From assembly GCA_021904315.1 (NCBI GenBank), contig CM038923.1, positions 4,898,001 to 4,962,000 on the forward strand: DNA of 64,000 nucleotides, given 5' to 3'. Within the stretch, counting starts at the first letter, position 1; each line of letters begins with the position of its first letter. The position numbers were made by a program, and so were the translations under genes. The notes under the pieces were generated by a model. That model saw nothing but the letters and a program-made list of their open reading frames with translations, searched no databases and was not told the DNA's origin. Positions 6,691 to 38,285 of the stretch are shown here, in pieces. The stretch is from Sphagnum magellanicum. Its lineage: Eukaryota; Streptophyta; Sphagnopsida; Sphagnales; Sphagnaceae.

Positions 6691-7039
6691 GTATAAAAGC
6701 ACTTCAACTTATAATATCTTTAATTGTGGAGTCTCACTCTTTGAGAGAGAGACAAAGAAAGAAAACAAGTAAGTTACTTACTCACTTTCTTTCTACTCTC
6801 TTTATGGTATGCTCTTCCTTTAATAAATAGTTTAAGTTTTTTTGGTTTTAACTTATTTTCAAGTATGATTAGTAGCCTAAACCTGGCAACTTGTTCTAAA
6901 CTTGGGAGATTTGATTTTAATTTTTTTTTGGGGTGATTGATCAATGAATGAGATCCGACACATAAGAAAAAACCATTGATACACCCATAACAATTTAATA
7001 GAACCTACAGCAATATTAACATCTAATATACCACCATTG

Positions 7040-8130
7040 GTACCCATTGCTCATGGGTGAGGAACAGTTTAAGAGCACTTTGCCATTTCATTCCTTATAT
7101 ATTTGGACACAGAAAATGCCTTGGCCAGAGCAGATCATGGAGGGAGGAGAGCACGTAGTTGAAAAGTAATAAGATGCTTGGAGGGCAAGAAAATGAGCGC
7201 ATCTAGACTTTTTTTTTTCTACAATGTTTTGGTTATGTATTCAGAGATTTTAGTGTCAAATATTGTAATTAGAGTGCAGGAGAGATTGTGTGTGGGAAGC
7301 ATGCCCAGCGCTGCTGCTCAGTCTCTGTGACCTTGCAAAAGAAATTTCTCACATCCAAGTTTAGTTATTTACTTTTTTTTTTTTTCCCAACCCCACCCAT
7401 AAAACTCAAACTCCCAAATAGGCGGGACACTACCGAGTAACAGCAAAATGGAGCACATTTATAACATTTTTCTCTAGAACGTGAAGGGCTCTCCTGGGCC
7501 TTTCCTGGACGTCAGCAAGCTGCGCAAATATGTACGAGCAAATCATCTTCCTGAGGCAAGCCGGCGTGTCTCAACTTTTCTTCATCATTTGAATTTTAAT
7601 CTGAAGGGTTACATACTGAACACCGCTGGGAATGCTCTTAGGCTTTAGACACATGAAGGAAAGAAAGAAGAAAAGTGTCACCATCAATCAACGATCCAAT
7701 GAGAGGACGAATGAGACACTTGTGAGAATTGATCATGATGATGGCTTGAATTTGTTTGATTTTCGAGAAGAAATGAGACTTTTAGGTGGAATTAGTGGCT
7801 TTGAGAAGTGTGCACAGGAGCTTGTTTCCCACGCCATCCATCACATGGAAAGTTCGCCCGAAGGTCTACACAGAAATCACAACTACATAAATTTGCTGCC
7901 GTGGTGTGCAATGGAGTGCTAGAAGACACCAGACGTCACACAGTAGAAGAAGAAGAAGAAGAAGGAAAAGGTAGTAGAAGAAGAAGGAAAGAGAGGGAGA
8001 GGCAGACAGACAGGCAGAAGAAAGGCCACCTATCACGATTTCATTTTTTGTTCTTTCTTTTTCTTCCTCCTTGGAAATCCTAAGGAACCCTAAGGATTAG
8101 GGTTTACAATCAACATTGGACTTGGACGAA
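7040..8130 (+). promoter_or_regulatory. Upstream region and leader of reductase gene A, with paired telo-box motifs
   Basis: The 5' side of gene A is shared with gene B in the other arm. Just before the coding start there is a (GAA)n-rich purine tract (about 7,944-8,000) and then two telo-box-type motifs facing each other, AACCCTAA (8,087-8,094) and TTAGGGTTT (8,097-8,105). Telo-boxes are known elements near plant transcription starts. No TATA box was assigned with confidence, and the transcription start is unknown. Confidence 0.45.
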
Positions 8131-10365
8131 ATGGTTGTTGGCAAGACGGTTTGTGTGACTGGTGCTTCCGGCTTCATCGCCTCTTGGCTTGTGAAGCTGC
8201 TTTTGCAGCGTGGTTATAATGTCCGAGGGACGATTCGTAACCTAGGTACGCAGTTAGTTTTTGGCATGGCCAAGAAGCAAATAAATCTTCCAGAATATTG
8301 TTCATTGTAATCTGGTTTGTCATCTTTGCTTCCATGAACATTTCAGTGTTTTTTTGTTTTGTTTTTAGGGTTTCGTTCCTCATCATGCAGAAAGTTGTAG
8401 CATGTGCGATGATGATTGCATTCTGCCATCATAAATTTCGTTTTTATGCATGTGCTTGGATTGAATTTATGTGGATTTTGTTTTCAAGTTTTTTTTTTTT
8501 TTTCATGCTCATTGCAATGTTACTGGGCATTTCAAACCTCAATTTCGTCTTCACTGGGTATTTAAGTTTAGGTCGATACAACATTGAACATCATGATGAT
8601 GCAAAAGCTCTTCAGCATTGTGCTGCTTGACATCATGGATCGTATGGGCATTATGTAGACCTTGGTTCAAAATATGCTGCAGATGAAGTGGGGGATGAAA
8701 TCCATGAAAGTGACTGCACCCAAGCCCACCAAGGAAGAGTTTCACAGTGTTGGAGCCTGTGAGCCTTCACTATTTGAAAGAATTTCTCTTGTCATGAGGA
8801 CTAGAAAGTTATGTTGCAATGGATGGGGGTGTGGCAGAGAAAGCGAAGTTTCTGCTGCAGTTACCAGGTGCCAGTGACCGCCTGAAGCTGTTTTCTGCTG
8901 ACCTTTTGGAACCTGGAAGCTTCGATGAAGCTGTGGCTGGCTGTGATGGAGTATTCCATGTCGCATCTCCAATCATCGTACAGGCAATTACAGATCCCCA
9001 GGTTTGATTCTCCCTGTTCAACCTATTTGGTTGCTACTTTTTCCAAGATGCAAAATTTATCACAAGTCTTGATTGTTTAGTGTTCAAAAACCATTTACTA
9101 TCTGTTTATTGAGGGAAAGGAAAACCAATAAGCTTTCAACTATCACATGTGGAATTGAGAAAGGAAAGGCAATTGTCCCTTGGTTTGTTCTTTAATAGCT
9201 CAGAGGATTGTCTATGTGGCAGGCACAATTCATTGAACCGGCGGTGAATGGAACTCTGAATGTGCTAGCTTCCTGTGCAAAAGCACACACACGGAGGGTG
9301 GTCTTGACATCAAGTGTAGCAGCTATCAACCACACTTCTAAATGCACTCCTGATGTTGTTCTGGATGAGAGTTTCTGGAGTGAAGAAGACTATTGTCGGG
9401 AAAGGAAGGTCTGTTGGATCTACTGATCTCTATTTTCTATTACTGGGTTTTTCCTATGTGTCTTAGCTTTGCTTTTCACTTTTTCTTGCAAAGTTTAGAA
9501 TTTAGCGGATTTTGGAAGATTTATTAGATAGCATGTGGGTGGTGCAGGATTGGTATGCGTTGTCAAAGACACTTGCAGAAAAGGCAGCATGGGATTTTGT
9601 GAAAGAGAAAGGTTTGGACATGGTGGTCATCAACCCCGATGGGGTTTTTGGTCCTACTTTACAAGCTTCAGAACTCGGAACTAATATATATATTTTGGGA
9701 ATACTAAATGGTGAGTATCTCCAAAACCTCATAGCCTGAAATATTTGGCTCGTCATATAATGTGCATGAGTTAGAATAAAGCCTTTGGACTCCTTGGGAA
9801 CTTTGCCAACATGTTTGATATTGTTTTGGCATTTGCAGGGACAATCAAAGGATATCCAAACATTGCTTTTGGGATTACGAGGGTCACAGATGTGGCAATG
9901 GCTCATATATTGGCATATGAGTCAGAGCATGCAACAGGCCGGTACATTTGTTCTGGGCCTGTACATCCGTTGGCTGATGTGGTCTCACTTTTGAGAAAGC
10001 TGTATCCAATGTATGACATTTCTGATAAGTAAGTTACAAGCCTCTCTCCCTTCACTTTCTCTCCAGTTTGCATTATCAACTCCAAGAAATGGGTGTTATT
10101 CACATCGTAGGGGGATATGTTCCCCACCCATGCCTTTCCTTGGGAGCAGCTTTCTTGATGTCTGGTTCTTTCAGCTTGCCAAGTTGATAGAAAGTGGTGG
10201 TTGAATTGGTGGGTTTCCAGGGTTGTTGACGAAACTGCCCCTACGATTCCACCACACAATGTGTCATCCCAAAAGTTGAGGGATCTTGGACTGCGCTTGC
10301 AACCCACTGAATATGTCATTCATGAAACTGTAACAAACTTTAAGCAGTGGGGGCTGTTGGACTAA
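8131..10365 (+). CDS. NADPH-dependent CCR-like / phenylacetaldehyde-reductase-like dehydrogenase, gene A
   Basis: Six exons, 8,131-8,245, 8,838-9,001, 9,223-9,408, 9,548-9,710, 9,839-10,028 and 10,221-10,365, join in frame to 320 residues, usual for the family. The extended SDR fold is shown by the nucleotide-binding [11 protein letters not shown] (residues 10-20), [11 protein letters not shown], the TSS serines (123-124) and the catalytic tyrosine and lysine in YALSK (158-162). CCR's NWYCYGK signature is replaced by DWYALSK, and YxLSKTLAE is typical of CCR-like and phenylacetaldehyde reductases. These cytosolic enzymes reduce aldehydes, acyl-CoAs or ketones with NADPH; the substrate here is unknown. 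The ATG at 8,131 was chosen because it fits [11 protein letters not shown] in all four copies. Exon 2 could start at 8,805 instead, but the 8,838 acceptor is the one that also works in genes C and D. Oddity: residue 186 is Asp in INPDGVFGP where gene B has Gly and C/D have Ser. Gene B in the opposite arm is the closest copy. Confidence 0.88.
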
Positions 10366-12935
10366 AGACATTCCCTGCATATGCGATACACATGGATGGG
10401 ACTTTCCTGTTGTTTTGGAGCAAACGACTTACCTTAAATTCCATCCTTCAATAGGTTAATTGCCAGAAGCCCTTAGCGATTTAATTTTTCTTGAGTCCTA
10501 TACAAGGAGAGGATGGTACATGCACTGAAGAGGGCTATGTTCTGATGTTGCCTGCAATGTGAGTTTTTGACTTGCATAACTTCTTTATGGTTTTTGTGTT
10601 TTCATAAAATCTATGGCATATTTTAATATGAGTGTTGTTGTGTAATTAGTGTCATATTTGATGAATTGCTGTATCAATGGATTGGACTACATATTTCATG
10701 ACTTTGGTGAATGGAACTTTGGAATCTTATATGGATCTTTGTTAATTATAATGTTGAATCAAAGGCAAGTGCGCTGATTTTGTAAATTGAGTATATAAAT
10801 TGACAATCGATCTTATAAATAGTTTATTTATAAGAATTGCCAAGTTGGTTAGAAATTTGAAGCTTAAAATTGATATGAATTGAAGTTGTTTTGATTGTCA
10901 TTTCTTTGATATTTTGAAATGATTTGCCTCATTTAATGGGATATATTCTTGGGGGTAACAAGCATTTTTGGATGGCTTAGAGAAATTAGTATTTTTTTTT
11001 GTTTTCAAATAATTGCACTAATTAGCAGACTAATTATCCTGCATTAGCATAAATGCCCGGTTTGCATAACACTTATATTTAATTTAAGGATTAACTTGAA
11101 GGGGAAGAATATGAGGTTAAATATCATTTTGTTTTCACTGCATAGGGCGCTCCTTTTATGAGGAATGAATGAACTCATTCTATATAAGGAGCTTGTAATG
11201 TTTTTAATTATGTTGAAGGCTTTATTGTAAGCACCTAATTTTCTTTTGATCATTTTCAGAAATTGAAAAAATTAATTGTTGTTAATACATCTATGTCTTA
11301 CAATGTGCGCATGCAAATTGAATATTTTTGGTTTGAAAGTCTAACTGAATCAAATAAATAAATAAATAGAACTACAATTGAAAAATGCATTCACACATAG
11401 CCCTAATATACATTATAATGAACATGTCTTGTTAACAATTGTATTTATAAATGAATTGTATATTAAGTCTATTAAATTTCCATAGAATGTACTTTACAAG
11501 AATTGAATGTCAAAATTAAACAAGATTACAATTTACAAAGCAAGCTCACTTAACTTGTGATAAGACTACCAAGATTTGTTTGATGTTTAATGGATTGGTT
11601 GTTCTATCTATTTTGTAACCAAACTAGTTCATGATTTCTTATTTTTATAATATAGAGTAAAACCTAGTAATTTCTGAAATACATTAGAGGAAAGCTCCAG
11701 AAATTTGATTGTTACAACTTCTAACCAATGCTTTTTATTTTTGGAGACTTTTTGCATTTTTTTTAAAAACCTGGAAAAATATGATTTTCATACAGACAAA
11801 GGATTTTTGTGAAAAAATGATCCTAATTGGCCATATATGGGCTTTTTTTTTAATCATCGGATTTCTACAACATGGTGGCCAAAATGTAATAAGATTCTTT
11901 TTTTAAAAAGCTTTCACTTATGCTCTATAGCCAAATTTGGCTAAATCACCAATTTTCATTAGTGTTTTTCCTGGTAGGAAATTTTTTCCAAAATGGGAAA
12001 AGTGAAAAAATAAAGGGGAATATTCTTTCAAAATATTCCATTCTTCTAACAAAAATAGCCAGTTTCAAAAAGAATTGTTTAAAAAAATCTTTTCACCATA
12101 TTTGAACTCTGATTGTAGTTAGGCAGCATATTTTGAATTAGTTTTTAAAAACATTTAGATATATTCTAATAACATGTTGTCATTTAATGTTAAATCCCTC
12201 TTGGTATGCTAAGCCAAGGATGCAGGATCGAATTTTTGAAAAGAAAAACACTTATTTGGCTGCATTACAAAACACAATGGGACACTTTGGGACACGCATG
12301 ACCTTTGGGATGTCCCCAGAAACAGAGAAAACCATCAATTTTTGTGATAGACTGAGTTGCACCTTGTCTTCTTTTTCTGGAGCGCCTCGAGTGCTACTAC
12401 ATATATTTTCACTGCTCCTCCCTGGTACTATAATTCCTTCGCACCTTGTGCATTAAATGCTGAGTCTCAGCATTTCATACCTAGGTTTGATAAAATTTCA
12501 CTACTTTACTTTATGGATGTCACTGAAAGAGGGGTTAGGGGGCTGAAAGGAGGCCCAAAGACAGAGCGAGGACACGGGGACTTTTACGAATTTCTCTAAT
12601 AAGATTCAAAATTGTGGATTCAGGATACGTTTTTAATAATTAAACAAAAATCAATTCCTAAGGTCGCTGAAGGGTGAAATAACCAAGCAACATGATGTGA
12701 TCGTCTACATCAATTATTTGACTTTTGTGATCAAAGCAACTAAAGACATGGAAACGGTGTTGTGTGCCTGGAAACAATGCAAAATTCTTCGTCCATTATG
12801 CTCAATTCAAACCCAAGTGGTTCATAACATTGTTAATCAATTCTAAAATTCATCATCCATTACAATTTAGTTGGCAACCTGGGTTTAATAATCACATCAT
12901 TCCATTTGTGGACAAAAACTCTACTTAAATGATGC
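10366..12935. other. Gene A downstream region, non-coding, part of the left arm
   Basis: No gene was found. The first 550 bases should hold the 3' UTR. The stretch at about 10,900-12,460 appears once here but twice, in direct order, in the right arm (about 31,340-32,665 and 32,815-34,235). About 12,480-12,600 (GGGGTTAGGGGGCTGAAAGG area) has no counterpart in the right arm. Short open frames here, for example 12,187-12,456, have no recognised motif and differ between the copies. Confidence 0.6.
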
Positions 12936-14692
12936 GAGAGTGAACCAGCACCCACCGGTGCACCAAAGTGGATGGATGGTGCACTGATGGGTGCACCTTT
13001 TTCGTCCCTCCCTGTCCCTGGGCTAACCAAGGTGGTGAACTCAAGTTGACCTCCTTTTTTTTCCACAGCCCCATGCTGGCCCAGGTCTCACCTACCTACC
13101 TACCTACATCTATACTACTTGGCTACGCACCCTGGTCTCCTCGCTCCTCCACCTACCTACCTACTTGTCCATCTACCCACCCATTTGCCTACCTACCCAT
13201 CAACCTACCTATCTATGTATTTATGCACTAAATCTCCACCAAGGCAATGACAAGTGAAATGATCTCCTTTTCATGTTCCTTTTGGGATGAAAATCTCGTT
13301 TAATTTCAGCTATCTTAAACATCTCTAACCCCTTTGCATTAAAAAACCTTGTTAATTCGAATTAATCAGCAAGATCCTCATCCTTTTTTAATTTGGTCAT
13401 TACATTACATGGGGGGATGGACTCCACACCCCATGTTGGAATGCCCAATAGAATGAACAACTTGGAAGAAATGATTTTTACCAATGTGGGCATCAATGCC
13501 ATTTTATTCATAAATGCATCATTTCACAAGTGATCCCACTCACATGTGGCACATGTTTTTGTTCAAGCAATTGCCTTTTTCTTATTACACTAAAGCCTAA
13601 AAAAATGATTATTTAAGATTTATGCATTTATTGATGCATGGTCTTGATGGCATGGCCCTTCCTGTTGAGTAGATGGGTGCTTGAGTCTCCTTGGTTTTGT
13701 GGATGGACCGTGCTCTCAATGTAAATAAATTGTTAAACAAGATGCATTACAAGTTTCAACCTTGCAAATAAATCTATGCCCATCTTTCTCCCAAATCATG
13801 CCCTCCTTGGCAACCCCATGCAACACATTTGCCCCTAAACCAACAACATAAAGAAAAATCAAGATATTTAGATAAATCATAAAAAACAAGGGTATTGCAC
13901 TTGATGATGAAATATATTACAAAGGAAATGAGAATATTGCATGCACACTAATGACTAATTTTAAGGTTATTACATAGGCAATGAAAGTATTGCATACACA
14001 ACAATGACTATTAATAAGATTTTTACATACACATCCATAATATTACATACCAATTGATGATTATTAATGAGATTAAATGTTTGGCAAAAACAAACCCCAC
14101 CCATTCTCTCAATGTGAAAGAATGAGGGGGGCAATGAATTAACATAAGTTGTAAACTAATGTCAATTTGTGGGAAGATTGAAAACTACAAATGCTTATTG
14201 GTCTTGTTTTCGCTTTTCCATTGTATAAATGTTGTTTGTTGGTGTTCTTCTATTATGACAACATTAGATTGCATTTGTTCATTTGCACTAGTGCAAGTTC
14301 ATGTGAACCAACAACTTCATTTGTTGCACATGTTCTAGCTAGTGATGCCTATGATATAACCAATGTTGCATCTTCCATCACAAATGATGCTAACTCATTG
14401 CTTACATCAAAACCGCCTTCAACAAATTGCTTGAATTTTTTTTCTAGTTTGCATCTTAGTAAAAAATTAATAAAATTATGCTTCATGAAATTATAAAGAA
14501 CACAATCAAATCAAAATGAAGAAATCAATGAAATAACAATTATTAAAACTATGATATGCAAACAAAAGCAAGACAATTAGTAAAAACACCATAATCAAAA
14601 TGACTAGCAAAAGCTCAGATGAAATATGTGAACCTTTTTTTTGTGGTTGGGACAAACCCCAACACACAAAGGAGAGGTTTACCTTTTCACAG

Positions 14693-14729
<37 letters not shown>

Positions 14730-15505
14730 ACAAAAACAAAATGAACAATTAAAATTAAAAACCCAAAAAGAGGGGGGAAAAAAAATCAGCAAGAAACAAC
14801 AGAAATAAATAATATTTTCAAATTTTTATAAAATAAAACAGAAAATAAAATAATAAAAACATCAAAAAAAGAAAAACAACAAAACTTGAAAAAAAGAAAT
14901 TAAAGAACCCCAAAAAATCTATTAAAATCCCAATTAAAATAATAAGGAAAAAACCAGAAAATCCAAATTTTTTTTTCAGAAAACAGAAATTTTAAACTCC
15001 AAAAAAAAAAACCAACAAAAAAAGGAAGGAAAAAAAAGAAAAAGAAAAAGACAGAATTATTATTTTTTAATTACAAAAAATGAAAAAAAACCAGAATTTT
15101 AAAGAGTACAACAAGAAAAAAACAGAAAATAAAAATAAGAAAAAGGGGAAACAATGGGAAAAATCCAGGAGAAAACCAGGAAAATAGAAATTAAACCCCC
15201 CCCCCCCCCCCCCCCCCCCCCCCAAAAAAAACCAATATTAAGAAAACCAACAAAAAAAAGAGAAAAAAACAGGGAAAAAAATGAACAAGATAGAAATAAT
15301 ATACAATAAAAAAACGAGAATATGAGAAGAATATAAAACCAGAATTGAAAAAATTACTGAGAATAAAATATTAGAAACAGGAAAAAAAAAGAAAAAAAAT
15401 CTAAAAAAAAGAAATTCCAAAAGAAAGGTATTAAAAAAACCAGCAAAAAAACAGGAAAAAAGAAACTAAAAGCAAAAAATAAAATAAAAGAAATTTCTGG
15501 GGCTG
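12935..15505. other. Insertion unique to the left arm
   Basis: Homology with the right arm stops near 12,930 (right-arm position 29,757) and resumes near 15,505 (right-arm position 29,750), so about 2.57 kb was gained here or lost there. It begins with GTGAACCAGCACCCACC, nearly the terminal repeat of the small element at 57,735-58,117, followed by (CTAC)n-type repeats at 13,093-13,215. The middle (13,240-14,690) is AT-rich without a recognisable gene. It ends in the low-complexity tract at 14,697-15,480. It is probably composite rather than a single transposon; no matching second terminus was found near 15,505. Confidence 0.6.
14697..15480. repeat. (TC)n(AC)n followed by an A-rich purine tract with a 28-base poly-C run
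   Basis: A (TC)n(AC)n dinucleotide run (about 14,697-14,729) is followed by some 740 bases in which the + strand is overwhelmingly A with scattered G and C and little T. A run of 28 C occurs at 15,196-15,223. There is no coding signal; the 60-codon frame on the - strand (15,238-15,420) is pure low-complexity phenylalanine. Confidence 0.8.
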
Positions 15506-15514
15506 GGCTGTGCA

Positions 15515-16127
15515 AGAGACTCATGTAAAGCATACCACAGCTTTCCTAAATTTTTCAAGTCATGGGTACACAAATTGCATGGGACTTGGCTTACTAGTGG
15601 TGATTAATATTGCAATTACACATTTTAATTGGCTATCACTTGTTAATCAATATTGAATCCTACAATAATTGAACCACCTAATAATGACCATGCTAGACGC
15701 AACTATCTAATATTCTTTAAGTGATTTTATCCAAAGAAACAATAAAATGGTCTTGCATTACAACAAACAAAAATAATTATAGACATTCATAAGTGAAATA
15801 GGTTATCATCTTAATCATAAGGGTACGTATTAATATACTGAACCTCTCATTTGTAATGGTGTTCATGTCATCATTTGTCCCCAACTCAATGCCATTGCCT
15901 ATCGTTTCAATTCCTTTACTTAGACATGTGCACACCATATACAAAGCTTGGGCAATGGGCACACATGGAAACCCTCATGAATGAGGTGTAATGTGAGACT
16001 CTAATATGAAGAACACTTGTTAAATTTGATTGGGGATAAGATTAAAATTTTTGACGTTAACTTGATTTGCCATGGCTAAAAAGCTTCTTCCCTACACCAT
16101 TAGTAGGGATTCCAAATGGAGGAAACA
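15515..16127 (-). pseudogene. Unrecognised ORF relic at the inner end of the left arm
   Basis: On the - strand a frame at 15,777-15,962 reads ALYMVCTCLSKGIETIG followed by ELGTNDDMNTITNERFS. The mirror copy at 29,182-29,412 (+) reads LYVVCTCLSKGIETISN and ELGTNDMNTITN. The agreement at protein level suggests a piece of an old coding sequence, possibly from a transposon. Upstream sequence in both copies contains stops in this frame. I do not recognise the family. Confidence 0.3.
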
Positions 16128-17030
16128 TTAACATACATGGTTGCAATGTTAGTTCGATTGTTGGTTAGTTACTCACCACCCTATTGTATTTTATTAGATG
16201 GAGTTAGTATGTGCCTAACAAATGATGCATACTTGTGGACAAATGGTTTTAGAAATTCAATATTGTTAGGGGGGGGGGGGCTCACTTTAATTAGATGTCC
16301 TTTGATTTTTCAAATTGATTGTTTTGGGGGACATAAATGAAATTATTTCATAGCCAAAATCAAAATGTACTAAATTAATAGACGCATGTTGATAAAGGAA
16401 AAGCCATTGGCTGAAGCCAAACATGACTTTTTTTGTACTCCTTCATATGTCAGAAGTTCAAAACATGAAGCTCTCTATTTGATTCTTGTACTAAAAGCTA
16501 GTTTTAAATTACCATTGGGTATATGTAAAGGTTGTGTTCTCATGGTTAGTTAGGTGCCTTTGGTTGTTGGGACTATGTCGTGCGGATGGATGTAAAAGGC
16601 ACATCACTTGCATCTAGGTGTGTAAGTATTTCCTAAATATATGAATGCAGTTTTCAAAAAAATCTAAGTCCTAACAAAGTAGCCTTTTTGTAATAGTATT
16701 GTCGGTTCCGTGTTTTTATGAAAGGAATTCTCGATGGCTCTGCCCATAGGGAAGAGACTATGCAAATTGGCCTAAGTAAAGAGATTGGGGCATCAAATTT
16801 TGGCTTGAACTTGAAACAATGAGCAAAGCCAGATCTAGAGTTACTATGTGTGTGCATATGATGGATGGGCATGTTTGGTAGAAGTGCATACATATGGATG
16901 AGAAATTCTACATTTATCTTGTAAGGGAACGTATGGATGAGAAGTTTTACATCCAGTAAGGGAAGTTTTTAGTTCGAGGTGGAACCTGCCATAACTTAGG
17001 GCAGAATCCTAACCCGACTCACTCAGATTC
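16128..17030. other. Start of the spacer between the arms, nothing recognised
   Basis: AT-rich sequence with an 11-base poly-G run near 16,269. Two short frames (16,116-16,340 + and 16,654-16,893 -) show no motif. No gene or repeat family is supported. Confidence 0.5.
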
Positions 17031-17034
17031 TTCT

Positions 17035-17509: not shown

Positions 17510-17540
<31 letters not shown>

Positions 17541-25297: not shown

Positions 25298-28036
25298 GAG
25301 TAAGTTTCTGATAATCTGCAGGAAAGTGTGCAAATGATCTCATGAGGAATAAGACAAAAAGTTCCTTGTAGATTTCATGGGAGGCAGAAATCTCATTCAG
25401 TTTGCTGTGGTAAAGTGGCAGATATAAGGAAGGTCTTGGTTAATGTTGGGTGTTTTGGGGTTTATTCTAGATTGTTCTATTTGCCATCAGTTTGAGAAAT
25501 ATAGCCTTCTATTGGTTTTCTGATGCTAAAGTCTATGTAGCAAATGGAGGTTAAAACAACTGAAAATATCTTGGTTTGATAGGTGCACGTGTAGATGGAT
25601 GTGCATGTGCTTTTTATGAAGTTTTTTTGGGGAGTTTTTGGAGCAGGATTTCAGCTATTTGTTTCTGATGGCAGGTGGCTAATGAAACATTGATGGAAGT
25701 GGTTGTTCGGACAACAAGTTGTGACACAGGTTTGAAGTGGGAAATCGAATGTGAAAATAATGAGATTCGGTTTAACACCTGTCATGATACATGGTCAGCA
25801 TTTGTGCAGCTTCTAGCCCAATTACAGGAGAGGTTTGCTCCACCTTTGGAGCAACAAAGTGTGCAAATCAAAATACAAAGGGAAAACGAATCTTCGGGAA
25901 ATGAATCCCCAAACTTGTTAGATGGGGTACTGGAGGATGCATTTGCTAGCACTCAATATCTACAGGATCCGGAATATGTTGATGTTCAGAGTCCCAACAT
26001 GAGTAGCAAGGAATTTCAGGAATTCATTGAGGATTATGTCTCAAGGGAAATCTCCGGGGATTCTTCAAGCATAAGTGATGATGAATCCTTCTTGAGTCTG
26101 CCTCAAGAGCCCGCAACGAGTGGACATCAGCTGGCCCCTGGAGGTGGGTGGTATGGTTCTGATGTTCTTGAGTTTGTGGAAGACCATGTTCCGAAAGAGA
26201 TACTGAGTGCCAAAGTCAGTCTGCCCAAGAAATATCCACCATCAATTGGTCGAGTGTTGCTGCGCAATTTGAGTGTCAGGTTGCGCCTTTTCAGTGGGAG
26301 TGATTGGCCCACGAATGATGGTACTCAAAAGGCAACACAATTCAGTGGACGAGATTGCAATAACTACTTGGAAGTGTTTCTGAGTGGGGTCAATCTGCAG
26401 CATGACATGTTCCCTATGAGTGGGCTCTATGCTTCAAAATTTGCACTTTCTGTATGTGACTTTGGGGTATATGATCGCAGTATTGGTGCTCCATGGCGAA
26501 CGGTAAAAACCCATCTCTTTGAAAGATAAAAGACTGTTGAAAGTTGCTTAGAATTCCATCAATGAACTGTAATAGAAGACTCCCTTTTGGGTGGTCTTTG
26601 AATGTCTTCAGTCCTGATCAGACACTTGGATTTCTGAGGTTTGTACCATTGATTTGCTACAGTATGGGTTCGTCTGTGAACTGGGATGTGAGGCCTTTCT
26701 TCCAATAGGGTTCATGTCTGTTTATTGCAAGTGACAGTCTTATTTTGAGCCTCACTGGGGCAGACAATCTCTGATGAGGACAAGGTTTATTTGCACAGGT
26801 GATTGGATACCATAAGGTAATGTCAAGACCAAGGGAATCTTCATCACAGGCAATCAAAATAGAAGTGGATGCTGTGCACCCAGATCCCAGCGATGCTTTA
26901 GAAGAGTACCGGTGTGTTGTCCTGCACTCTCTAATTACTTCAACTCAGTATGTTTTCCTGAACTGGGTCTCAGATAATAAATCTCTCTTCCTTGGTAGTG
27001 AGTCCATTCTGACAGAAGACTCATATAATCATGTTCATGGGCCAGGGTATCACTGGCATTTCTGCCAATCCGTCTTCATTTGGACCAGCGCCATGTTGAC
27101 TTCTGCACTGAGTTTTTCTCACCACGCCCGTCTGCTCCTCCTCCTAGAGACAAGAAGTTGATGGATGAGGGCTTGTACCATAAGCATTCTCCAAATGGCA
27201 CCCTTCCTTTTGCCCTTGAAATGTCCGAGTCTGCTACAGAGCCCTTGCTTCCCTTCTTCCAGGTATGCTTGTATCAAAACCCTAAACCCTAAATACAGAA
27301 CCATAATTTAATGTCATATGTAGGTAGGTTCTTCATTCATGTCTGTTTAGTTTTGCATTTTAAAAAACTTTTGAGACTCACCGAGGAAAGGACTGTTTGT
27401 CTAAGAAGTGATGCTCAAACTGCAGGTTTGTGAAGTTTTGCCTTTCACAATTCGGGTTGACTATCTTCCACACCGAGTCGATCTTGCTGCATTACGGGGT
27501 GGGAATTATGTGGAGCTGGTGAATTTGGTCCCATGGAAGGCATGATTATCTTCTTCTCTTTTCCCTTTTCTTGTTGCCACACTGGAGAAAAAGGCCCATG
27601 TTGAAAGAATTATCAAAAGTTGAAATTAAACCATGAACCCTAAAATTTTGCTCATTTTGCTCATTGCTTTTGACTTTCCATATGTGTGCAGGGTATAGAG
27701 ATTTCAATGAAACATGTTCGGGCAGCAGGTGTGCATGGTGTGAGTAGCTTGACAGACATGGTGTGCAAAGAATGGATCCAAGATATATTCCAAAACCAGG
27801 TGCACAAGTTTATACAAGGTGCAGGTCCAATCCGGCCACTATATACTGTGGGATCCAGTGCTGCCAAGCTTGTCATCTTCCCTGCTCAGCACTATTGGAA
27901 AGAATATCATTTACTTCATGAGATCCAGAAAGGACTGAAACGTGTCTCATCTCTTTACAAGATAAGAAAAGAGGTAATGTCTGAAGAAAGACGAAATGCA
28001 AAACAAAATTCCTCAACTACAACTCTGCAATCATAG
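20405..28036 (+). CDS. ATG2: Autophagy-related protein 2 (ATG2), C-terminally short
   Basis: Twelve exons join in frame: 20,405-20,572, 20,774-21,196, 21,440-22,104, 22,355-22,407, 22,663-22,817, 22,961-24,325, 24,493-25,233, 25,675-26,502, 26,799-26,911, 27,046-27,262, 27,426-27,539 and 27,692-28,036, giving about 1,728 residues. The N terminus carries the chorein-type block of ATG2/VPS13 lipid-transfer proteins ([19 protein letters not shown], residues 30-48). [40 protein letters not shown]-like sequence and the NQVHKFIQG...VGSSAAKL block match plant ATG2, not VPS13. ATG2 moves lipids from ER to growing autophagosomes, with ATG9 and ATG18/WIPI. Introns are short. The intron after 27,539 has a GC donor (AAG then GCATG). 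After [13 protein letters not shown] the protein leaves the family pattern and stops; plant ATG2 is near 1,890 residues, so about 150 C-terminal residues are missing. A donor (GAG then GTAATG at 27,974) could lead to a further exon, but none is evident before 29,134. The 20,773 to 21,439 junctions are the least certain. Confidence 0.9.
25264..25300 (+). repeat. (ATG)n microsatellite in an ATG2 intron
   Basis: A run of about ten ATG/GAT triplets lies 30 bases after the donor site of the intron that follows 25,233. It keeps the exon frame open past the splice site for some codons but is intronic by splice consensus (TACAG then GTTGAC). Confidence 0.85.
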
Positions 28037-29133
28037 GGAAAAAAACACAAGCTGTGCAACAAAGGATTAATTAGTTTGGTGTTTCCAGATAAGAAGGTTA
28101 CTGTACCATATTAATCTGATTTCCATCAATCTAGCTATAGAGCAGAATTCTTATGGGGGGGGGGGGGTTAGTAAAACAATTAGCACTTTACAATCGGGAG
28201 GAGAAGGTCAAGGTGGTTCAGGTCTTTTAAGGTCCAGAGGAAGGTTAAGGGCTTAAGGGCTTAGGTTCAGGGGCAAGGGTTTAAAGTAGGGAAGGTGAAG
28301 GCGGTATGGTTCACACTTGAAAAGACTCACTTCCGCTGTTGCCCACAGAAACACTGCTAAAAAGCTGTGTACTGTGTTCAAACCAAAAGTTTGCAGTCTG
28401 TATATGAGACGCCTCTGCCTGTCCACCCATGTGCAGGTAGCAAATTGAATTGATAGCAATTTTTCATTTTTAGTTCCGTATTTGGGTTTTTCTTTGCAGT
28501 TATGAGCTTCACTCAGATCTAATGTGGGTTTGAATTCAAAGTTTCTGGTAAGCTCTGTTACAAGGGATGGGGGAACTTCATCAATGGATATGCATGTCAA
28601 TGAAAATGGGAAGAATGAGAATGAAAATCTAACATCCACCCCAAAAAGTCCTGGCAAGCAAAAACTACTGTGAGTCATCTAGTATTAGTTTTTGAGATTT
28701 TTTGGAGACCCATTGTGGTCACATACCAGAATTGGTCCTTTGATTGTTGAGAACTGTGGTTGTTTTATGAATCTTAAGGAACCGTCCTGGGGACTGTCCA
28801 TTCTTTGGTTCCATTTTCCAATAACCCAATCCAACACTCATATAAACTGCATACTTTTATTCATCCAAGTTGAGACCTTTTGTATCCATATCAAATGCAT
28901 TCATCCACAATGGAATGTGAAAAAATGAAATAATAAGTTGAGAGAAACAAAGGGCAGTGTCTTGTGAAGAAAAATTGCTGAAGTTTGTGTAACAAATGCT
29001 AATAAGTGCTACATACCACACCACATTTTTATCGCAAGAATAAAAATATGTGACCTTGGCAACAAATCTCCATCCTGAGTATATTTTTTAACTCCTGGAC
29101 TTCTAATTTCTTGAACTTGAAACTAAGATTTTT
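28037..29133. other. ATG2 3' flank up to the inner edge of the right arm
   Basis: No clear continuation of ATG2 was found. A poly-G run lies near 28,156. About 28,340-28,560 resembles 60,060-60,300 (see the fossil LTR entry). A stop-free frame at about 28,508-28,675 reads VGLNSKFLVSSVTRDGG and NENLTSTPKSPGKQKLL then a stop. It looks somewhat protein-like but has no resemblance I recognise to the ATG2 tail. From 28,690 to 29,133 nothing is recognised. Confidence 0.4.
28340..28560 (-). mobile_element. Fragment resembling the LTR of the fossil at 58,500-60,310
   Basis: The CACCCATGTGCAG, CAATTGAATTGA and TGAGCTTCA-TCAGAT segments occur in the same order and spacing at about 60,165-60,270. This makes it probably a short remnant of the same LTR family, lying just 3' of the ATG2 coding end. 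It is an old, partial, broken copy. Confidence 0.4.
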
Positions 29134-29181
29134 TCCTCCATTTGGAATTGGTACTAATGGTGTAGGAAAGAAGCTTTTTAG

Positions 29182-29412
29182 TTGCGGCAACTCAAGTTAA
29201 TGTCAAGAGTTTTAATTTTATCCCTGGTAAAACTAAACATGTGTTGTTCTTCACATAAGAGTCTCACATTAGACCTCATTCATGAGGGTTTCCATGTGTG
29301 TCCATTGCCCCAACCTTTGTATGTGGTGTGCACATGTCTAAGTAAAGGAATTGAAACAATAAGCAACGTCTTTGAGTTGGGGACGAATGACATGAACACC
29401 ATTACAAATTAA
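29182..29412 (+). pseudogene. Unrecognised ORF relic at the inner end of the right arm
   Basis: Mirror copy of the relic at 15,777-15,962 (-). The two share CTCLSKGIETI and ELGTND-MNTITN. This copy is open for 76 codons with a TTG-type start in the listed frame; the first ATG lies at about 29,200. Function and family are unknown. Confidence 0.3.
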
Positions 29413-30479
29413 ACGTTCAATATTTTAATACCTATCCTCATGATTAAGATGATGATGACCTATTTCGCTATGAATGTCTATAATTCTTCTGTTTGTTGTA
29501 ATGTAAACCATTTATTTGTTTCTTTGGATAAAATCAAGTGAAGAATATACTTGCCTCTAGCATGGTCATTAGGTAGTTAAATTATTGTGTGATTCAATAA
29601 TGATTAACAAGTGCTAGCCAATTTAAATGTGCAATTGCGGTACTAATGACCACTAGTAAACCAAGTCCATGCAATTTGCACCCAAGACTTGGCAAATTAG
29701 GAAAGCCATGGTATGCTTTGCATGAGAATTGGCATAATCAGCCAATTCACTCAAATAAGGCTTTTGTCCATGAATGAAATGATGTGATTATTAAACAAAG
29801 GTTTGCCAAGTAAATTGTAATGGGTGATCGATTTTTGTATTGATTAACAACGTTATGAACCACTTAGTTTTGGATTGAACATAATGGGTGAAGAATTTTG
29901 CATTGTTTTCACGTGCACATCGCTTCCATGTTTTTAGTTGCTTTGAACACAAAAGTCCAATAATTTAGGTAGATGATCACATGATCTTTCATGACCTTGC
30001 TTGGTTATTTCACCCTTCAATGACCTCAGAAATTGATTTTTCTTTAATTACTGAAAACATATTATGAATTCCACAATTTGGAACTTATTGCATGATAATT
30101 GTTTTTCAATTTTTTTGGGGACATCCCAAAGGTCATGGATGTCCCAATGTGTTTAGGTATACAAGCTAATAAGTAGTTTTCTTACTTCAAATTTTGTTAA
30201 CATGATAGTGTTAACAGGATGGAGATTGGAAAATAAGTCTAGGTAAATATATTATAATTTAAAATCTGACAAAACTTTAATGATGATACTTACAAGTTGG
30301 AACTTGGAACTAGGGTTTAGTTTTTTGAATATTGAATATTGAATTTTGTTATGCAGCCAAAGAACTGATTTTTTTTCTCAATTTTGTGATGTTGCATCAT
30401 TGGTTAGCATCCCAAGAGGGATTTAGCATTAAATGAAAACATGTTTTTAGAGTATCTCTAAATATTTTAGCTCCACACT

Positions 30480-31340
30480 TCTGCACACTACCATTGATAA
30501 TCAAAAAAATAATAATTCTTATATTTTCATATGGTTTTCAATAATTTATCATTATTTATGTCAATGTCAAATTTAATTTAAGTTAATATGCATTACATGG
30601 ATGTGAAAAGACAAATGTTAAATTTTTTTTTCATATCCATGTTGGTGGGTAAGGGAAAAAGAGTGAGGTAATTATAAAATGAAGATAGTTAATAGGAAAG
30701 GTGGGAGATAGTTATTAAAAATGTTAATAGGAAAAGGAAATAGTTATTAAGAAAGAAATGAAATAATCATGCTTGAAAATTAGATAGTGTTTTTTTTGAA
30801 ATGGCCCATGGATGACATACAAAGGATTCCAAAAAATCTCCCATGTACTAGATTTGATTATTCATCACTAAATTGTTTTAAAGTAATTAAAAATATGCTA
30901 CTTCGTGTTGCTATACCTTACTAGTGATGATTTTCCTTCTTATTATGTTCCTATATGATTATCAAGAATTCATCATCATTTATGTCAATATCAGATTTAT
31001 TTTTAACTAATATAAATATCATGGGCATGAAAAATCACATTTTAATTTTCCTTTTCATATCCATGTTGGTGGGTAAGGAAAGGGGTGAAATAGTTATAAT
31101 GATTAGAGATAATTATTAAGTAAGGAATGAGATTAGTCGTAAAGATAAGAGGTAGTTATTAGGAAGGAACTAACGTAGTTAAGCTTGGAAATGAGATAAT
31201 TATATTTGAAAATGTCTTTGGAATTATCTAGGCACAACTATACATAGGATTATGCAAATAAGAAGCCTATGAAAGATGATAGAAAACCACCCATATACCA
31301 TGTCTTTGAAATTATCGTCACTTGAACTAAAATCAAAGTG
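30480..31340. repeat. Insertion in the right arm made of a repeated unit
   Basis: Two related segments (about 30,525-30,780 and 30,945-31,210) share TTTATGTCAATRTCA, TTTTCATATCCATGTTGGTGGGTAAGG and a run of AGTTATTA-type motifs, with a spacing of about 415 bases. Related phrases occur near 4,665-4,720 reversed and in the tandem array at 52,870-53,345. There is no coding signal. Confidence 0.5.
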
Positions 31341-34235
31341 CAAATATGGTGAATTTTTTCCCAAAAAAAACTCTTTTAAAAATCTAATGGTTTTTTTTTA
31401 GAGAAAAAATTCCATCTAATATTTATTTTTCACATTTTGGCAACATTTTGTACCAAAAAAAGAAAACACTAAGCCAAATTGATGATTATCAACAAAAAAG
31501 ATTTAAGCAAATTTGGCTATAGAGCAGATGTGAAAAAAAAAAAATTTTAAATAATCCTATTATATTTTGGCCACCAATTGCAGAAATCCGGGGATTAAAA
31601 AAAATAGAAAATCGAAATCTAGCAAATTAGGATCATTTTTTTCACAAAAATCCTTTGTATGTATCAAAATCATTTTTTTCAGGTATAAAAAAATGCAAAA
31701 TTTTCCAAAAATAGAAATATTGGTCGGAAGTTGGAACGCTCAAAATTCTAGAACTTTTGTTTAATGTGTTTCAGAAATTACTAGGTGTTATTATGTGTTA
31801 TGAACATAAAAAATCATGAAGTAGTTTAATTACAAAATAGATTTAAAAACCAATACATTGAACATGAAATACATCTTGGTAGGTCTTATCAGAAGTAGGC
31901 TAGTTTTGTAGGTTAATTTTGTAAATTGTAATCTTGTTTAATTTTGACATTCAATTCTTGTATTTAGTACATTTTTTATGGAAATTTTAATAGAATTAAT
32001 ATACAATTCATTTATAAATACAATTGTTAACAACATGTGTACATCATAACGTCTATTAGGGCTACATGTGAATGCAATTTTCAATTGTAGTTCTTTCTAT
32101 TTATTTGATTTAGTTAAACTTTCAAACCAAAAGTATTCAATTTGCACGTGCACAAGTAACACATAGATGTATTAACAACAATTAATGTTTTCAATTTCTG
32201 AAAATGATTGAAAGAAATTTAGGTGCTTGCAATAGCGCCTTCAACATAATGAAACATTACATGCTCCTTTTATGGAATGACTTCATTCATTCAGCATACA
32301 AGGAGGGCTATATGTGGTGAAAGAAAAATGATAATTAGTATCCTTGACCCTCACTTTAATCCTTAAAATTAAATACAAGTGTGTTATGCAAGATTGCTAA
32401 TTAGTGCAATTGTTTGAAAACAAGCCAAAAAAAAAAACTAATTTGGCTACGCCATCCAGAAAAGCTTGTTACCCCCAAGCATATGTCCTATTAAATGAGG
32501 CAAATAACTTCAAAATATGTAGTAGCAGTGGAGGGTTTAGGGGTTTATGCACAAGGTGCGAAGGAATTATACTACCAGGTAGGAGCAGTGAAAATATATG
32601 TAGTAGCAATGGAGGCGCTTCAGAAAAAGAAGACAAGGTGACACTCAGTTTACCACAAAAATTGATGGTTTTTGGAGTTTCATCGACCTGTGCCCTTCCT
32701 TTACTGTTAATGTACATTTTTGCAGGTTTTTTTTTTTTTGGAATCTCACTTTGCTTATGTGCTTTATTTTCCTCGCATTACAGATAACTCTATTGCAATT
32801 CTTTTTCAACTGTTTTTGGGAACATCCCAAAGGTCATGCATGTCCCAAAGTGTCCCATTATGTTTTGTAATGCAGCCAAATAAGTTTTTTTTTTTTTCAA
32901 AAATTTGATGCTTTTGTCATTGGCTTAGTATACCAAGAGGGATTTAACATTAAATGACAAAACATGTTTTTAGAATCTATCTAAGTATTTTTAAAAACTA
33001 GTTCGAAATATGCTGCCTAACTACAATCAGAGTTCAAATATGGTGAAAGGATTTTCTTAAACAATTCTTTTTGAAACTAGCTATTTTTGTTAGAAGAATG
33101 GAATATTTTTGACAGAATATTCCCTTTGATTTTTACTTTTCCCATTTTGGAAAAAATTTCCTATCAGGAAAAACACTAATGAAAATTGGTGATTATCAAC
33201 AAGAAAATTTAGCCAAATTTGGCTATAGAGCATAAGTGAAAGTTTTTAAAAAAAGAATCTTATTACATTTTCACCACCATGTTGTAGAATCTGATGATTA
33301 AAACAAAATTCCATATATGGCCAATTAGGATCATTTTTTCACAAAAATCCTTTGTCTGTATGAAAATCATATTTTTCAGGTTTTTAAAAAAATGCAAAAA
33401 GTCTCCAAAAATAAAAGCATTGGTTAGAAGTTGCAACAATCAAAATTCTGGGGCTTTCCTCTAATGCATTTCAGAAATTACTAGGTTTTACTCTATATTA
33501 TAAAAATAAGAAATCATGAACTAGTTTGGTTACAAAATAGATAGAAAAACCAATACATTGAACTTGAAACAAATCTTGGTAGTCTTATCACAAGTTAAGT
33601 AAGCTCACTTTGTAAATTGTAATCTTGTTTAATCTTGACATTCAATTCTTGTAAAGTACATTCTATGGAAATTTAATAGAATTAATATACAATTCATTTA
33701 TAAATACAATTGTTTACAAGACATGTTCATTATAATGTATATTAGGGCTACATGTGAATGCATTTTTCAATTGTAGTTCTATTTATTTATTTATTTGATT
33801 CAGTTAGACTTTCTAACCAAAAATATTCAATTTGCATGCGCACATGTAACACATAGATGTATTAACAACAATTAATGTTTTCAATTTCTGAAAATGATCG
33901 AAAGAAAATTAGGTGCTCACAATAACGCCTTCAACATAATTAAAAACATTACAAGCTCCTTATGTAGAATGAGTTCATTCATTACTCATAAAAGGAGGGC
34001 CCTATGCAGTGAAAACAAAATGATATTTAACCTCATATTCTTCACCTTCAAATTAATCCTTAAATTAAATATAAGTGTGTTATGCAAACTGGGCATTTAT
34101 GCTAATTAGTCTGCTAATTAGTGCAATTATTTGAAAACAAACAAAAAATACTAATTTTTCTAAGCCATCCAAAAATGCTTGTTACCCCCAAGAACATATC
34201 CCATTAAATGAGACAAATAATTTCAAAATATCCAA
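31340..34235. repeat. Direct duplication within the right arm (units of about 1.2-1.4 kb)
   Basis: The sequence at about 31,340-32,520 repeats at about 33,050-34,235 in the same orientation. Shared markers are TTTGGCTATAGAGCA at 31,511 and 33,218, TTAGGATCATTTTTT at 31,627 and 33,326, TAGATGTATTAACAACAATTAATG at 32,164 and 33,854, and TGCTTGTTACCCCCAAG at 32,463 and 34,176. The left arm has a single copy (about 10,920-12,330). The duplication therefore postdates the inverted duplication, or the left arm lost a unit. It is non-coding. Confidence 0.8.
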
Positions 34236-34751
34236 GAAATAACAATCAAAACAACTTCAATTCATATCAATTTTAAGCTTCAAATTTCTAACCAACTTGG
34301 CAATTCTTATAAATAAACTATTTATAAGATGGATTGTCAATTTATATACTAAATTTACAAAATCAGCACCCTTGCCTTTGATTCAACATTATAATTAACA
34401 AAGTTCCATATAAGATTCCAAAGTTCCATTCACCAAAGTCATGAAATATGTAGTCCAATCCATTGATACAGCAATTCATCAAATATGACACTAATTACAC
34501 AACAACACTCATATTAACACAAAAACCATAAATAAGTGATGCAAGTCAAAACTCAGGTTGCAGGCAACATCAGAACATAGCCCTCTTCAGTGCATGTACC
34601 ATCATCTCCTTGTATAGGACTCAAAAGAAAAATTAAATTGCTAAGGGCTTCTGGCAATTAACCTATTGAAGGATGGAATTTAAGGTAAGTCGTTTGCTCC
34701 AAAACAACAGGAAAGTCCCATCCATGTGTATCGCATATGCAGGCAATGTCT

Positions 34752-36999
34752 TTAGTCCAACAACCCCCACTCCTTAAAGTTTGTTACAGTTTCATGAATG
34801 ACATCTTCAGTGGGTTGCAAGCGGAGTCCAAGATCCCTCAACCTTTGGGATGACAAATTGTGTGGTGCAATCGTAGGGACAGTTTCGTCAACAACCCTGG
34901 AGACCCACCAATTCACCCACCACTTTCTATCAACTTGGCAAGCTGAGAGAACCAGACATCAAGAAAGCTGCTCCCAAGGAAAGGCATGGGTGGGGAACAT
35001 ATCCCCCTAGGATGTGAATGACACCCATTTGTTGGAGTTGATAATGCAAACTGGAGAGAAAGTGAAGGGAGAGAGGCTTGTAACTTACTTAGCAGAAATG
35101 TCATACATTGGATACAGCTTTCTCACAAGTGAGACCACATCAGCAAATGGATGTACAGGCCCAGAACAAATGTACCGGCCTGTTGCATGCTCTGACTCAT
35201 ATGCCAATATATGAGCCATTGCCACATCTTTGACCCCCGTAATCCCAAAAGCAATGTTTGGATATCCTTTCACTGTCCCTGCAAATGCCAAAACAATATC
35301 AAACATGTTGGCAAAGTTCCCAAAGAGTACAAAGGCTTTATTCTAACTCATGCACATTATATGACGAGCCAAATATTTCAGGCTATGAGGTTTTGGAGAT
35401 ACTCACCATTTAGTATTCCCACAATATATATATTAGTCCCGAGTTCTGAAGCTTGTAAAGTAGGACCAAAAACCCCACCAGGGTTGATGACCACCATGTC
35501 TAAACCTTTCTCTTTCACAAAATCCCATGCTGCCTTTTCTGCAAGTGTCTTTGACAATGCATACCAATACTGCACCACCCACATGCTATCTAATAAATCT
35601 TCCAAAATCCACTAAATTCTAAACTCTGCAACAAAAAATGAAAAGCAAAGCTAAGACACATAGGAAAAACCCAGTAATAGAAAATAGAGATCAGTAGATC
35701 CAACAGACCTTCCTTTCCCGACAATAGTCTTCTTCACTCCAGAAACTCTCATCAAGAACAACATCAGGAGTGCACTTAGGAGTGTGGTTGATAGCTGCTA
35801 CACTTGATGTCAAGACCACCCTCCATGTGTGTGCTTTTGCACAGGAAGCTAGCACATTCAGAGTTCCCTTTACCGCTGGTTCAATGAATTGTGCCTGCCA
35901 CATAGACAATCCTCTGAGCTATTAAAGAACAAACCAAGGGACAATTGCCTTTTCTTTCTCAATTCCACATGTGATAGTTGAAAGCTTATTGGTTTTCTTT
36001 TCCCCCAATAAACAGATAGCAAACGGTTTTTCACTATGTCGTTTTTGAACACTAAAAAATCAAGACTTGTGATAAATTTTGCATCTTGGAAAAAGTAGCA
36101 ACCAAATAGGTTGAACAGGGAGAATCAAACCTGGGGATCTGTAATTGCCTCTTTGACGATTGGAGATGCGACATGGAATACTCCGTCACAGCCAGCCACA
36201 GCTTCATCGAAGCTTCCAGGTTCCAAAAGGTCAGCAGAAAACAGCTTCAGGCGGTCACTGGCACCTGGTAACTGCAGCAGAAACTTCGCTTTCTCTGCCA
36301 CACCCCCATCCATTGCAACATAACTTTCTAGTCCTCATGACAAGAGAAATTCTTTCAAATAGTGAAGGCTCACAGGCTCCAACACTGTGAAACTCTTCCT
36401 TGGTGGGCTCGGGTGCAGTCACTTTCATGGATTTGATCCCCCACTTCATCTGCAGCATATTTTGAACCAAGGTCTACATAATGCCCATACGATCCATGAT
36501 GTCAAGCAGCACAATGCTGAAGAGCTTTTGCATCATCATGATGTTCAATGTTGTATCTACCTAAACTTAAATACCCAGTGAAGACGAAATTGAGGTTTGA
36601 AATGCCCAGTAACATTGCAATGAGCATGAAAAAAAAAAAAGACTTGAAAACAAAATCCACATAAATTCAATCAAAGCACATGCATAAAAACGAAAATTAT
36701 GATGGCAGAATGCAATCATCATCGCACATGCTACAACTTTCTGCATGATGAGGAACAAAACCCTAGAAACAAAAAAAAAAACACTGAAATGTTCATGGAA
36801 GCAAAGATGACAAACAAGATTACAATGAACAATATTCCTGAAGCATTATTTGCTTCTTGGCTATGCCCAAAACTAAGTGCGTACCTGGGTTACGAATCGT
36901 CCCTCGGACAGTATAACCACGCTCCAAAAGCAGCTTCACAAGCCAAGAGGCGATGAAGCCGGAAGCACCAGTCACACAAACCGTCTTGCCAACAACCAT
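34752..36999 (-). CDS. NADPH-dependent CCR-like / phenylacetaldehyde-reductase-like dehydrogenase, gene B
   Basis: Mirror copy of gene A with identical exon lengths on the - strand: 36,885-36,999, 36,131-36,294, 35,709-35,894, 35,407-35,569, 35,089-35,278 and 34,752-34,896, joining in frame to 320 residues. Extended SDR features are [11 protein letters not shown] at residues 10-20, [14 protein letters not shown] at 122-124, YALSK at 158-162 and INPGGVFGP at 183-191. The protein differs from gene A at about two dozen positions. At many of these ([25 protein letters not shown]) B agrees with genes C and D, so B looks closer to the ancestral form. Residue 156 is Tyr before WYALSK (Asp in A, Ala in C/D). 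The expected role is NADPH-dependent reduction of an aldehyde or related carbonyl in the cytosol; the substrate is not known. No frame break was seen. Confidence 0.88.
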
Positions 37000-38200
37000 T
37001 TCGTCCAAGTCCAATGTGGATTGTAAACCCTAATCCTTAGGGTTCCGTAGGATTTCCAAGGAGGAAGAAAAAGAAAGAACAAAAAATGAAATCGTGATAG
37101 GTGGCCTTTCTTCTGCCTGTCTGTCTGCCTCTCCCTCTCTTTCCTTCTTCTTCTACGACCTTTTTCTTCGTCTTCTTCTTCTTCTTCTACTGTGTGACGT
37201 CTGGTGTCTTCTAGCACTCCATTGCACACCACGGCAGCAAATTTATGTAGTTGTGATTTCTGTGTAGACCTTCTGGCGAACTTTCCATGTGATGGATGGC
37301 GTGGGAAACAAGCTCCTGTGCACACTTCTCAAAATAATTTAGTAGGACATTGCATCCACTAATTCGACCTAAAACTCTCATTTCTTCTCAAGAATCAAAC
37401 AAATTCAAGCCATCATCATCACCATCATCATCATCAATTCTCACAAGTGTCTCATTCGTCCTCTCATTGGGTCGTTGATTGATGGTGATTCTTTTCTTCT
37501 TTCTTTCCTTCATGTGTCTAAAGCCTAAAAGCATCCCCAGCGGTGTTCAGTATGTAACCCTTCAGATTAAAATTCAAATCATGAAGAAAAGTTGAAACAT
37601 GCCGGCTTGACTCAGGAAAACGATTTGCTCGTACATATTTGCGCAGTTTGCTGACGTCCATCCAGGAAAGGCCCAGGAAAGCCCTTCACGTTCTAGAGAA
37701 AAATGTTATAAATGTGCTCCATTTTGCTGATTGTACGAGCATATATGATTGGTCCAGATGGTTTGCTATTACTGTACGATCATAATGATTGGTCCAGCTG
37801 GTTTGCTATTACTCGGTAATGTCCCACCTATTTGGGAGATTGAGTTTTATGGGTGGGGTTGGAAAAAAAAAAAAGTAAATAACTAAACTTGGATGTGAGA
37901 AATTTCTTTTGCAAGGTCACACAGACTGAGCAGCAGCGCTGGGCATGCTTCCCACACACAATCTCTCCTGCACTCTAATTACAATATTTGACACTAAAAT
38001 CTCAGAATACATAACCAAAACATTGTAGAAAAAAAAGAGTCTAGATGCGCTCATTTTCTTGCCCTCCAAGCATCTTATTACTTTTCAACTACGTGCTCTC
38101 CTCCCTCCATGATCTGCTCTGTCCAAGGCATTTTCTGTGTTCAAATATATAAGGAATGAAATGGCAAAGTGCTGTTAAAATGTTCCTCACCCATGAGCAA
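37000..38200 (-). promoter_or_regulatory. Upstream region and leader of reductase gene B
   Basis: Mirror of 7,040-8,130. The paired telo-box motifs are kept (AAACCCTAA at 37,025-37,033, TTAGGGTT at 37,037-37,044 on the + strand), as is the TTC/GAA-rich tract near 37,145-37,190. Unlike gene A, it carries an extra stretch at about 37,726-37,803 in which TGATTGGTCCAGNTGGTTTGCTATTACT occurs twice in tandem. This could change spacing of upstream regulatory sites. Confidence 0.45.
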
Positions 38201-38285
38201 TGGGTACCAATTAGATGTTAATATTAGTGTAGGTTCTATTAAGTTGTTATTGGGTGCAACTAACGTTTTTTTTTATGTGTTGATG

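Follow-up and report, generated by a model that had tools for sequence, protein, structure and literature searches.

Long inverted repeats can mediate recurrent inversion of the spacer between them, and the concerted evolution of inverted duplicates is already a known kind of genome evolution. In primate Y palindromes, at least as summarized in PMC3403216, the inverted arms lie on one chromosome and in part look more recent than the duplication itself, with arms that are only 0.02-0.03% apart. Here we describe an arrangement of a similar kind in a 64,000-nucleotide stretch of Sphagnum magellanicum (NCBI GenBank assembly GCA_021904315.1, contig CM038923.1, C17:4,898,001-4,962,000, hereafter the window), where a left arm (L) and a right arm (R) in mirror order, each carrying a reductase gene resembling cinnamoyl-CoA reductase and dihydroflavonol-4-reductase (CCR/DFR), enclose a spacer with an ATG2-like gene. 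The arms fall into two classes of divergence with sharp borders, and their copies group differently along the arm, which is best accounted for, in our view with good probability, by an old inverted arrangement whose gene-bearing middle was later homogenised by non-allelic gene conversion. Compared with the Y palindromes, the arms here differ by 3.3% in the core, homogenisation is confined to their middle, and a copy from a different chromosome seems to participate. The locus also resembles plant clusters of CCR/DFR-like genes, in that the reductases match solved structures of CCR and of DFR-named enzymes (PF01370 family) over their full length, in the YxxxK motif and in a local cluster of at least five genes, and differs in that one member is inverted beyond an unrelated gene. 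With repeats that undergo recurrent inversion it shares two long inverted arms and a gene-bearing spacer, and it differs in that a single orientation is observed and a test of arm phase gave no net flip.

The data basis is the sequence of one assembly of a single species (438,994,042 bases, 31 contigs), with gene models built by homology; C11, C3 and C18 denote other chromosomes and, where sequences are compared, the copies on them. Whole-genome searches with the reductase unit scored the best 40 of 1,302 and the best 40 of 7,655 candidates, so that copy counts are lower bounds, and further genome searches scored 39 or 40 out of 245 to 7,592 candidates; as only the top-ranked candidates were scored, a missing match is weak evidence of absence. 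Among the titles listed in literature searches, none names the locus.

Self-comparison of the window revealed mirror-order matches between 6,958-16,125 and 38,280-29,132, bearing out the anti-diagonal that a preliminary description, made from the letters of the window, had proposed as a check. The best piece pairs 7,441-12,325 with 37,729-32,810 (4,965 columns, 94%, 7,602 bits, versus a minus-strand maximum of 41 bits across ten Markov-1 shuffles of the window), and additional pieces pair 6,958-7,447 with 38,280-37,802, 12,598-12,917 with 30,089-29,762, and 15,520-16,125 with 29,726-29,132. The mirror order of the two arms of about 9.2 kb drawn in that description is thus confirmed, but the picture of a plain 9.2-kb mirror has to be corrected: between its ends the chain aligns 6,351 bases, in two divergence classes (5,447 at 3.8% and 904 at 12.5%), the remainder being mostly sequence found in a single arm. 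Its arm ends, 6,955 and 38,285, have to be moved outward. On C3, the outward order from the gene is the counterparts of 37,994-38,281, then of L 6,958-6,679, then of 45,535-47,405, and the outer L remnants at 6,499-6,678 and 6,069-6,164 match R 46,159-46,009 and 47,440-47,345; from this order, mirror homology continues to about L 6,069 and R 47,440, and had been hidden by a 7.25-kb insertion in R.

Re-delimited by self-comparison, C3 comparison and segmentation, the left arm (6,069-16,125, plus strand) comprises outer remnants (6,069-6,164 and 6,499-6,958), a homogenised core (about 7,015-12,130) and an inner part to 16,125, within which 12,918-15,519 is present in L only. The right arm (29,132-47,440, minus strand), for which genome search was used as well, comprises an inner part (29,132-30,089), a duplicate termed A1 with a dispersed element (30,097-32,518), a homogenised core (33,007-38,225), a stub to 38,281, the insertion (38,282-45,534) and outer remnants within 45,535-47,440. 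Homologous arms thus lie in mirror order around a 13.0-kb spacer (16,126-29,131) that has no nearby duplicate, the configuration of an inverted segmental duplication. A mirror match of 6,160-6,476 to 53,992-53,685 was rejected as arm homology, both of its sides matching elsewhere in the genome, and another, of 4,661-4,842 to 52,834-53,162, lies near tandem repeats and was assigned neither to the arms nor against them. The L-only stretch contains a run of 28 C at 15,196-15,223.

In the BLAST alignments, L and R differ at 205 of 5,447 positions in the core (3.8%), at 113 of 904 in the inner part (12.5%) and at 31 of 244 in the outer part (12.7%; the outer value depends on the aligner, MAFFT giving 36/244), and core and inner divergence are distinct (Fisher, p = 9e-23). 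A three-segment likelihood fit delimited the core at R 33,007 and 38,225, corresponding to L ~12,132 and ~7,015, with rates of 3.3% inside and 11.6% and 13.4% outside, and gained 69.2 log units on a coarse grid, versus at most 10.6 over 200 shuffles. The R core so bounded (minus strand) differs from L at 167 of 5,070 aligned positions (3.3%), and the longest identical L-R tract measures 224 bp. Within the core, noncoding sequence (123/3,647, 3.4%) is as alike as exons (38/996, 3.8%), while L and C3 differ at 611 of 3,494 noncoding positions (17.5%); coding selection is therefore not the cause of the core similarity. Neither is local rate, since distances to C3 in the outer flank (R-C3 109/809, 13.5%, sum of four pieces) and in the core (L-C3 347/3,036, 11.4%, main core piece) are near a ratio of 1, and L-R divergence differs more than threefold between the same regions. 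Because the R-C3 value of 13.5% in the outer flank is close to that between L and R, the L-R split looks roughly as old as the split from C3. Distances to C3 of 26-30% in one outer piece ('outer B') were left out of account, as the C3 sequence aligned there extended beyond its homologous portion. A low-divergence tract with sharp borders inside older duplicates is one mark of duplicates evolving in concert.

The arms are not a unique pair. Among the best-scored candidates, C11 carries a further copy of the reductase unit, matching R at 95% and L at 94%, C3 carries one at 86%, and weaker relatives lie on at least C13, C9, C5, C16, C7 and C1. Window positions 30,628-51,822 are collinear with C11:6,828,263-6,850,303 over ~21 kb, apart from 37,935-38,281, which C11 lacks, and both ends of the C11 match fall inside genome-dispersed sequence. 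Two structural features are common to R and C11. One is a duplication: a 1.2-kb piece located downstream of the gene, which L and C3 have only once, has a second copy, A1 (30,097-32,518, minus strand), that is ~15% diverged from A2 (32,797-34,231) and carries a dispersed element at 30,464-31,330. The other is the 7.25-kb segment at 38,282-45,534, which is absent from L and C3 and therefore, by parsimony, an insertion; at its start is an element, dispersed in the genome, that is truncated at 38,282 in R but extends further on C11, and degenerate 7-base-type repeats follow at 38.66-39.68 kb. The innermost part of R (29.1-30.1 kb) has no C11 counterpart, and the 0.9 kb of inner L/R sequence gave no further match among the best 40 of 7,655 candidates scored.

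Along the sequence, L, R and C11 do not keep to one grouping, the other mark of concerted duplicates. In the outer flank, R and C11 differ at 4/96 and 9/151 positions, L and R at 10/93 and 26/151, and L and C11 at 8/93 and 23/151, which joins R with C11, while in the promoter zone (542 shared columns) L-R stands at 3.5%, L-C11 at 10.3% and R-C11 at 8.9%, which joins L with R. With C3 as the outgroup, the core holds 53 informative sites, 30 uniting L with R, 21 uniting R with C11 and two uniting L with C11. Once the two L-C11 sites are dropped, the longest run of a single label among the remaining 51 is 15 (p = 0.001), and in ranges picked post hoc, L 7.55-8.6 kb has 16 LR versus 2 R-C11 sites, and L 9.29-10.35 kb has 8 R-C11 versus 2 LR sites. 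Divergence between R and C11 takes values of 9.8%, 3.1%, 7.5% and 3.2% in its different stretches (up to 48,926, excluding 38.6-39.7 kb), and one of the borders, at 36,982, adjoins the start codon at 36,999. Adjoining the 7.5% stretch, C17 and C11 are just ~3-4% apart at 46,716-51,822, perhaps a further interchromosomal conversion tract.

Homogenisation by gene conversion would bring these observations together as follows. The arms would be two of a small set of segmental duplicates with a CCR/DFR-like reductase gene (C17-L, C17-R, C11 and C3), and the mirror state of L and R may have arisen, at what is now about 12-13% divergence, via inverted duplication or by inversion within a local reductase cluster. 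A block was probably copied between C17 and C11 later, given that A1, the 7.25-kb insertion and a portion of one flank are common to R and C11. Still later, conversion would have rewritten the middle, leaving L and R alike over about 5.2 kb, and R and C11 alike over about 5.1 kb (31.9-37.0 kb), with the old divergence persisting on either side. The divergence classes and the conflicting groupings are observed directly; that conversion was the agent, and that events came in this order, is what we infer from them. Several points weigh on the other side. The data do not distinguish conversion from replacement through renewed duplication. The outer remnants available for comparison span just 244 bases, the 19 label switches among the 51 core sites are only marginally fewer than expected (p = 0.064), and the overall tally of LR to R-C11 sites, 30 versus 21, is fairly balanced. 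Because three copies are spread over two chromosomes and an outgroup copy is available, with sharp borders and older flanks, the locus lends itself well to measuring non-allelic gene conversion in nature, and it illustrates once more that duplicate genes can be older than their percent identity suggests.

Noncoding flanks can outpace genes, and a single recent inverted duplication whose flanks evolved faster than its core would also leave a similar middle between dissimilar ends. Such a history is very unlikely here, because the core introns are as alike as the exons, the groupings conflict, and the rate control with C3, in which core and outer flank are about equally distant, contradicts it. 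An assembly artefact from duplicated or misjoined contigs can be practically set aside; as the preliminary description had argued from arm-specific insertions and duplications, such indels, together with 3-13% divergence and features of one or other arm recurring in the C11 and C3 copies, speak against it, as does the haploid state of the sequenced plant, if the species is the Sphagnum divinum of the account in PMC9946827. A choice that lies within the conversion account itself concerns the origin of the mirror. Direct tandem reductase copies may have existed beforehand, one of which was then inverted together with the ATG2-like gene, with no inverted duplication at all, and this variant deserves serious though minority weight: R and three further members of the cluster lie on the minus strand and L alone on the plus strand, yet nothing separates the two origins, and the lack of another match for the 0.9 kb of inner L/R sequence, within the 40 candidates scored, fits both.

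The preliminary description also raised the possibility that the spacer flips. This is mechanistically possible in principle and unsupported in this assembly. On the strongest form of the idea, the arms are an active inversion switch: crossing-over between them would invert the spacer, and the species would harbour the ATG2-like gene in either orientation, a state that could coexist with homogenisation by conversion. The 5.2-kb cores at 96.7% identity and identical tracts up to 224 bp would favor such exchange, and conversion, if it was the agent, implies pairing of the arms. A single flip with a crossover in the core, though, would move A1 and its element to the left arm, and both remain in R. 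The inner part of R (A1 and the dispersed element, 30.6-32.5 kb) and its outer flank (38.3-51.8 kb) are linked on C11 as on C17, with no swap of inner and outer phase relative to that copy; therefore, no odd number of flips is visible since the C11 split, and sites uniting L with C11 are only 2 of 53. This phase test has little power in the core, because conversion can wipe out the signal there; the innermost parts (29.1-30.1 kb) lack a C11 counterpart, and the test covers flips since the C11 split in one assembly. We thus consider an active switch improbable. Slightly more doubtful still is the wider scenario that the arms go on recombining in living populations, such that ~21 kb with a C-terminally shortened, diverged ATG2 paralog flips, chimaeric reductases form at the crossovers, and conversion maintains concerted evolution among three reductase copies on two chromosomes.

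The spacer does contain ATG2-like exons, as had been described, but the epithet 'single-copy-type' given to the gene fails, because a second locus exists on C18. The ATG2-like gene (20,351-27,946, plus strand) follows the C18 ATG2 collinearly, starting at the N-terminus and reaching profile position ~1,542 of 1,697, and two of its exons match the ATG2_CAD profile with 67.5 and 71.8 bits, above the Pfam cut-off of 50. With all 13 candidates scored, the PF13329 profile finds two loci, the C17 spacer and C18:5,785,470-5,794,590, which share 27-71% identity in aligned pieces of at least 25 residues. The C-terminal exon of the C18 gene (profile positions 1,541-1,682) has no counterpart in the window (best E 7.3), the only PF13329 match past position 1,543 sits on C18, and the likely C18 splice donor ahead of this exon, GTAAGA, is not kept on C17. 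The spacer gene is therefore a strongly diverged paralog without a detectable C-terminus. Table 1 of PMC6652269 lists a single ATG2 for each of P. patens, M. polymorpha and A. thaliana; that two loci exist here, one of them lacking a detectable C-terminus, may matter more than the flip.

That each arm holds an intact six-exon reductase gene, as claimed from the outset, is upheld by homology models with GT/AG splice sites and an open frame of 331 codons plus stop in both copies. Gene L (8,131-10,365, plus strand) has its exons at 8,131-8,245, 8,805-9,001, 9,223-9,408, 9,548-9,710, 9,839-10,028 and 10,221-10,365 and a PF01370 (Epimerase) domain (E 5.8e-24); gene R (34,752-36,999, minus strand) has the same six exons, and the two genes converge on the spacer. 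The best relatives of gene R in PDB are 4qtz, named dihydroflavonol-4-reductase (1.8e-91), and 4r1s, a cinnamoyl CoA reductase (2.9e-91), which together with the Epimerase-family domain marks the genes as CCR/DFR-like. They lack the NWYCY-type signature that is the hallmark of cinnamoyl-CoA reductase in the strict sense, with DWYALSK in L and YWYALSK in R versus NWYCYGK in 4r1s; the YxxxK motif is catalytic. The ratio of nonsynonymous to synonymous substitution rates between L and R, 0.63 (NG86) to 0.74 (YN00), implies weak constraint. Gene L is the richest in residue changes of its own, with 16 residues unique to it where the other two of the trio agree (6 in R, 8 in C11), yet its frame is intact. 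At the start of exon 2 (8,805 in L, 36,327 in R), L, R and C11 lack four bases that C3 has, and their reading frame would fit if the splice acceptor sits four bases further upstream.

The local cluster comprises at least five genes, of which L is the sole plus-strand member. Exons found by tblastn define two further reductase-like genes in the orientation of R, T1 (54,914-57,332, minus strand) and T2 (61,009-63,862, minus strand), and a further member, T3, lies beyond the window at about 4.973 Mb of C17, likewise on the minus strand.

An end of the C11 block through recombination between two copies of the 30.46-31.33 kb element is not supported, because on C11 the element is cut off and followed by sequence without a window match. 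The junction at 38,280/38,282, where L-R homology ends and C11 homology resumes, looks unusual at first sight but is more simply explained by a deletion in R, which would have removed an ancestral stretch together with the 5' part of the element at 38,282. That element may be Harbinger-like. The repeats following it (38,661-39,685) form ~1 kb of degenerate short units for which Tandem Repeats Finder (TRF) gives TAAGGTT, loosely like the plant telomere repeat, and they are more diverged from C11 than the sequence around them.

Near the left end of the window, three frames at 1.8-3.2 kb have no Pfam match at 0.01; these frames (1,769-3,229) have related copies elsewhere in the genome and may represent a decayed helicase of the PIF1/Helitron type. 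Directly outside the left arm, at 5,247-6,058, lies an element of which numerous copies, at about 85-94% identity, are dispersed through the genome.

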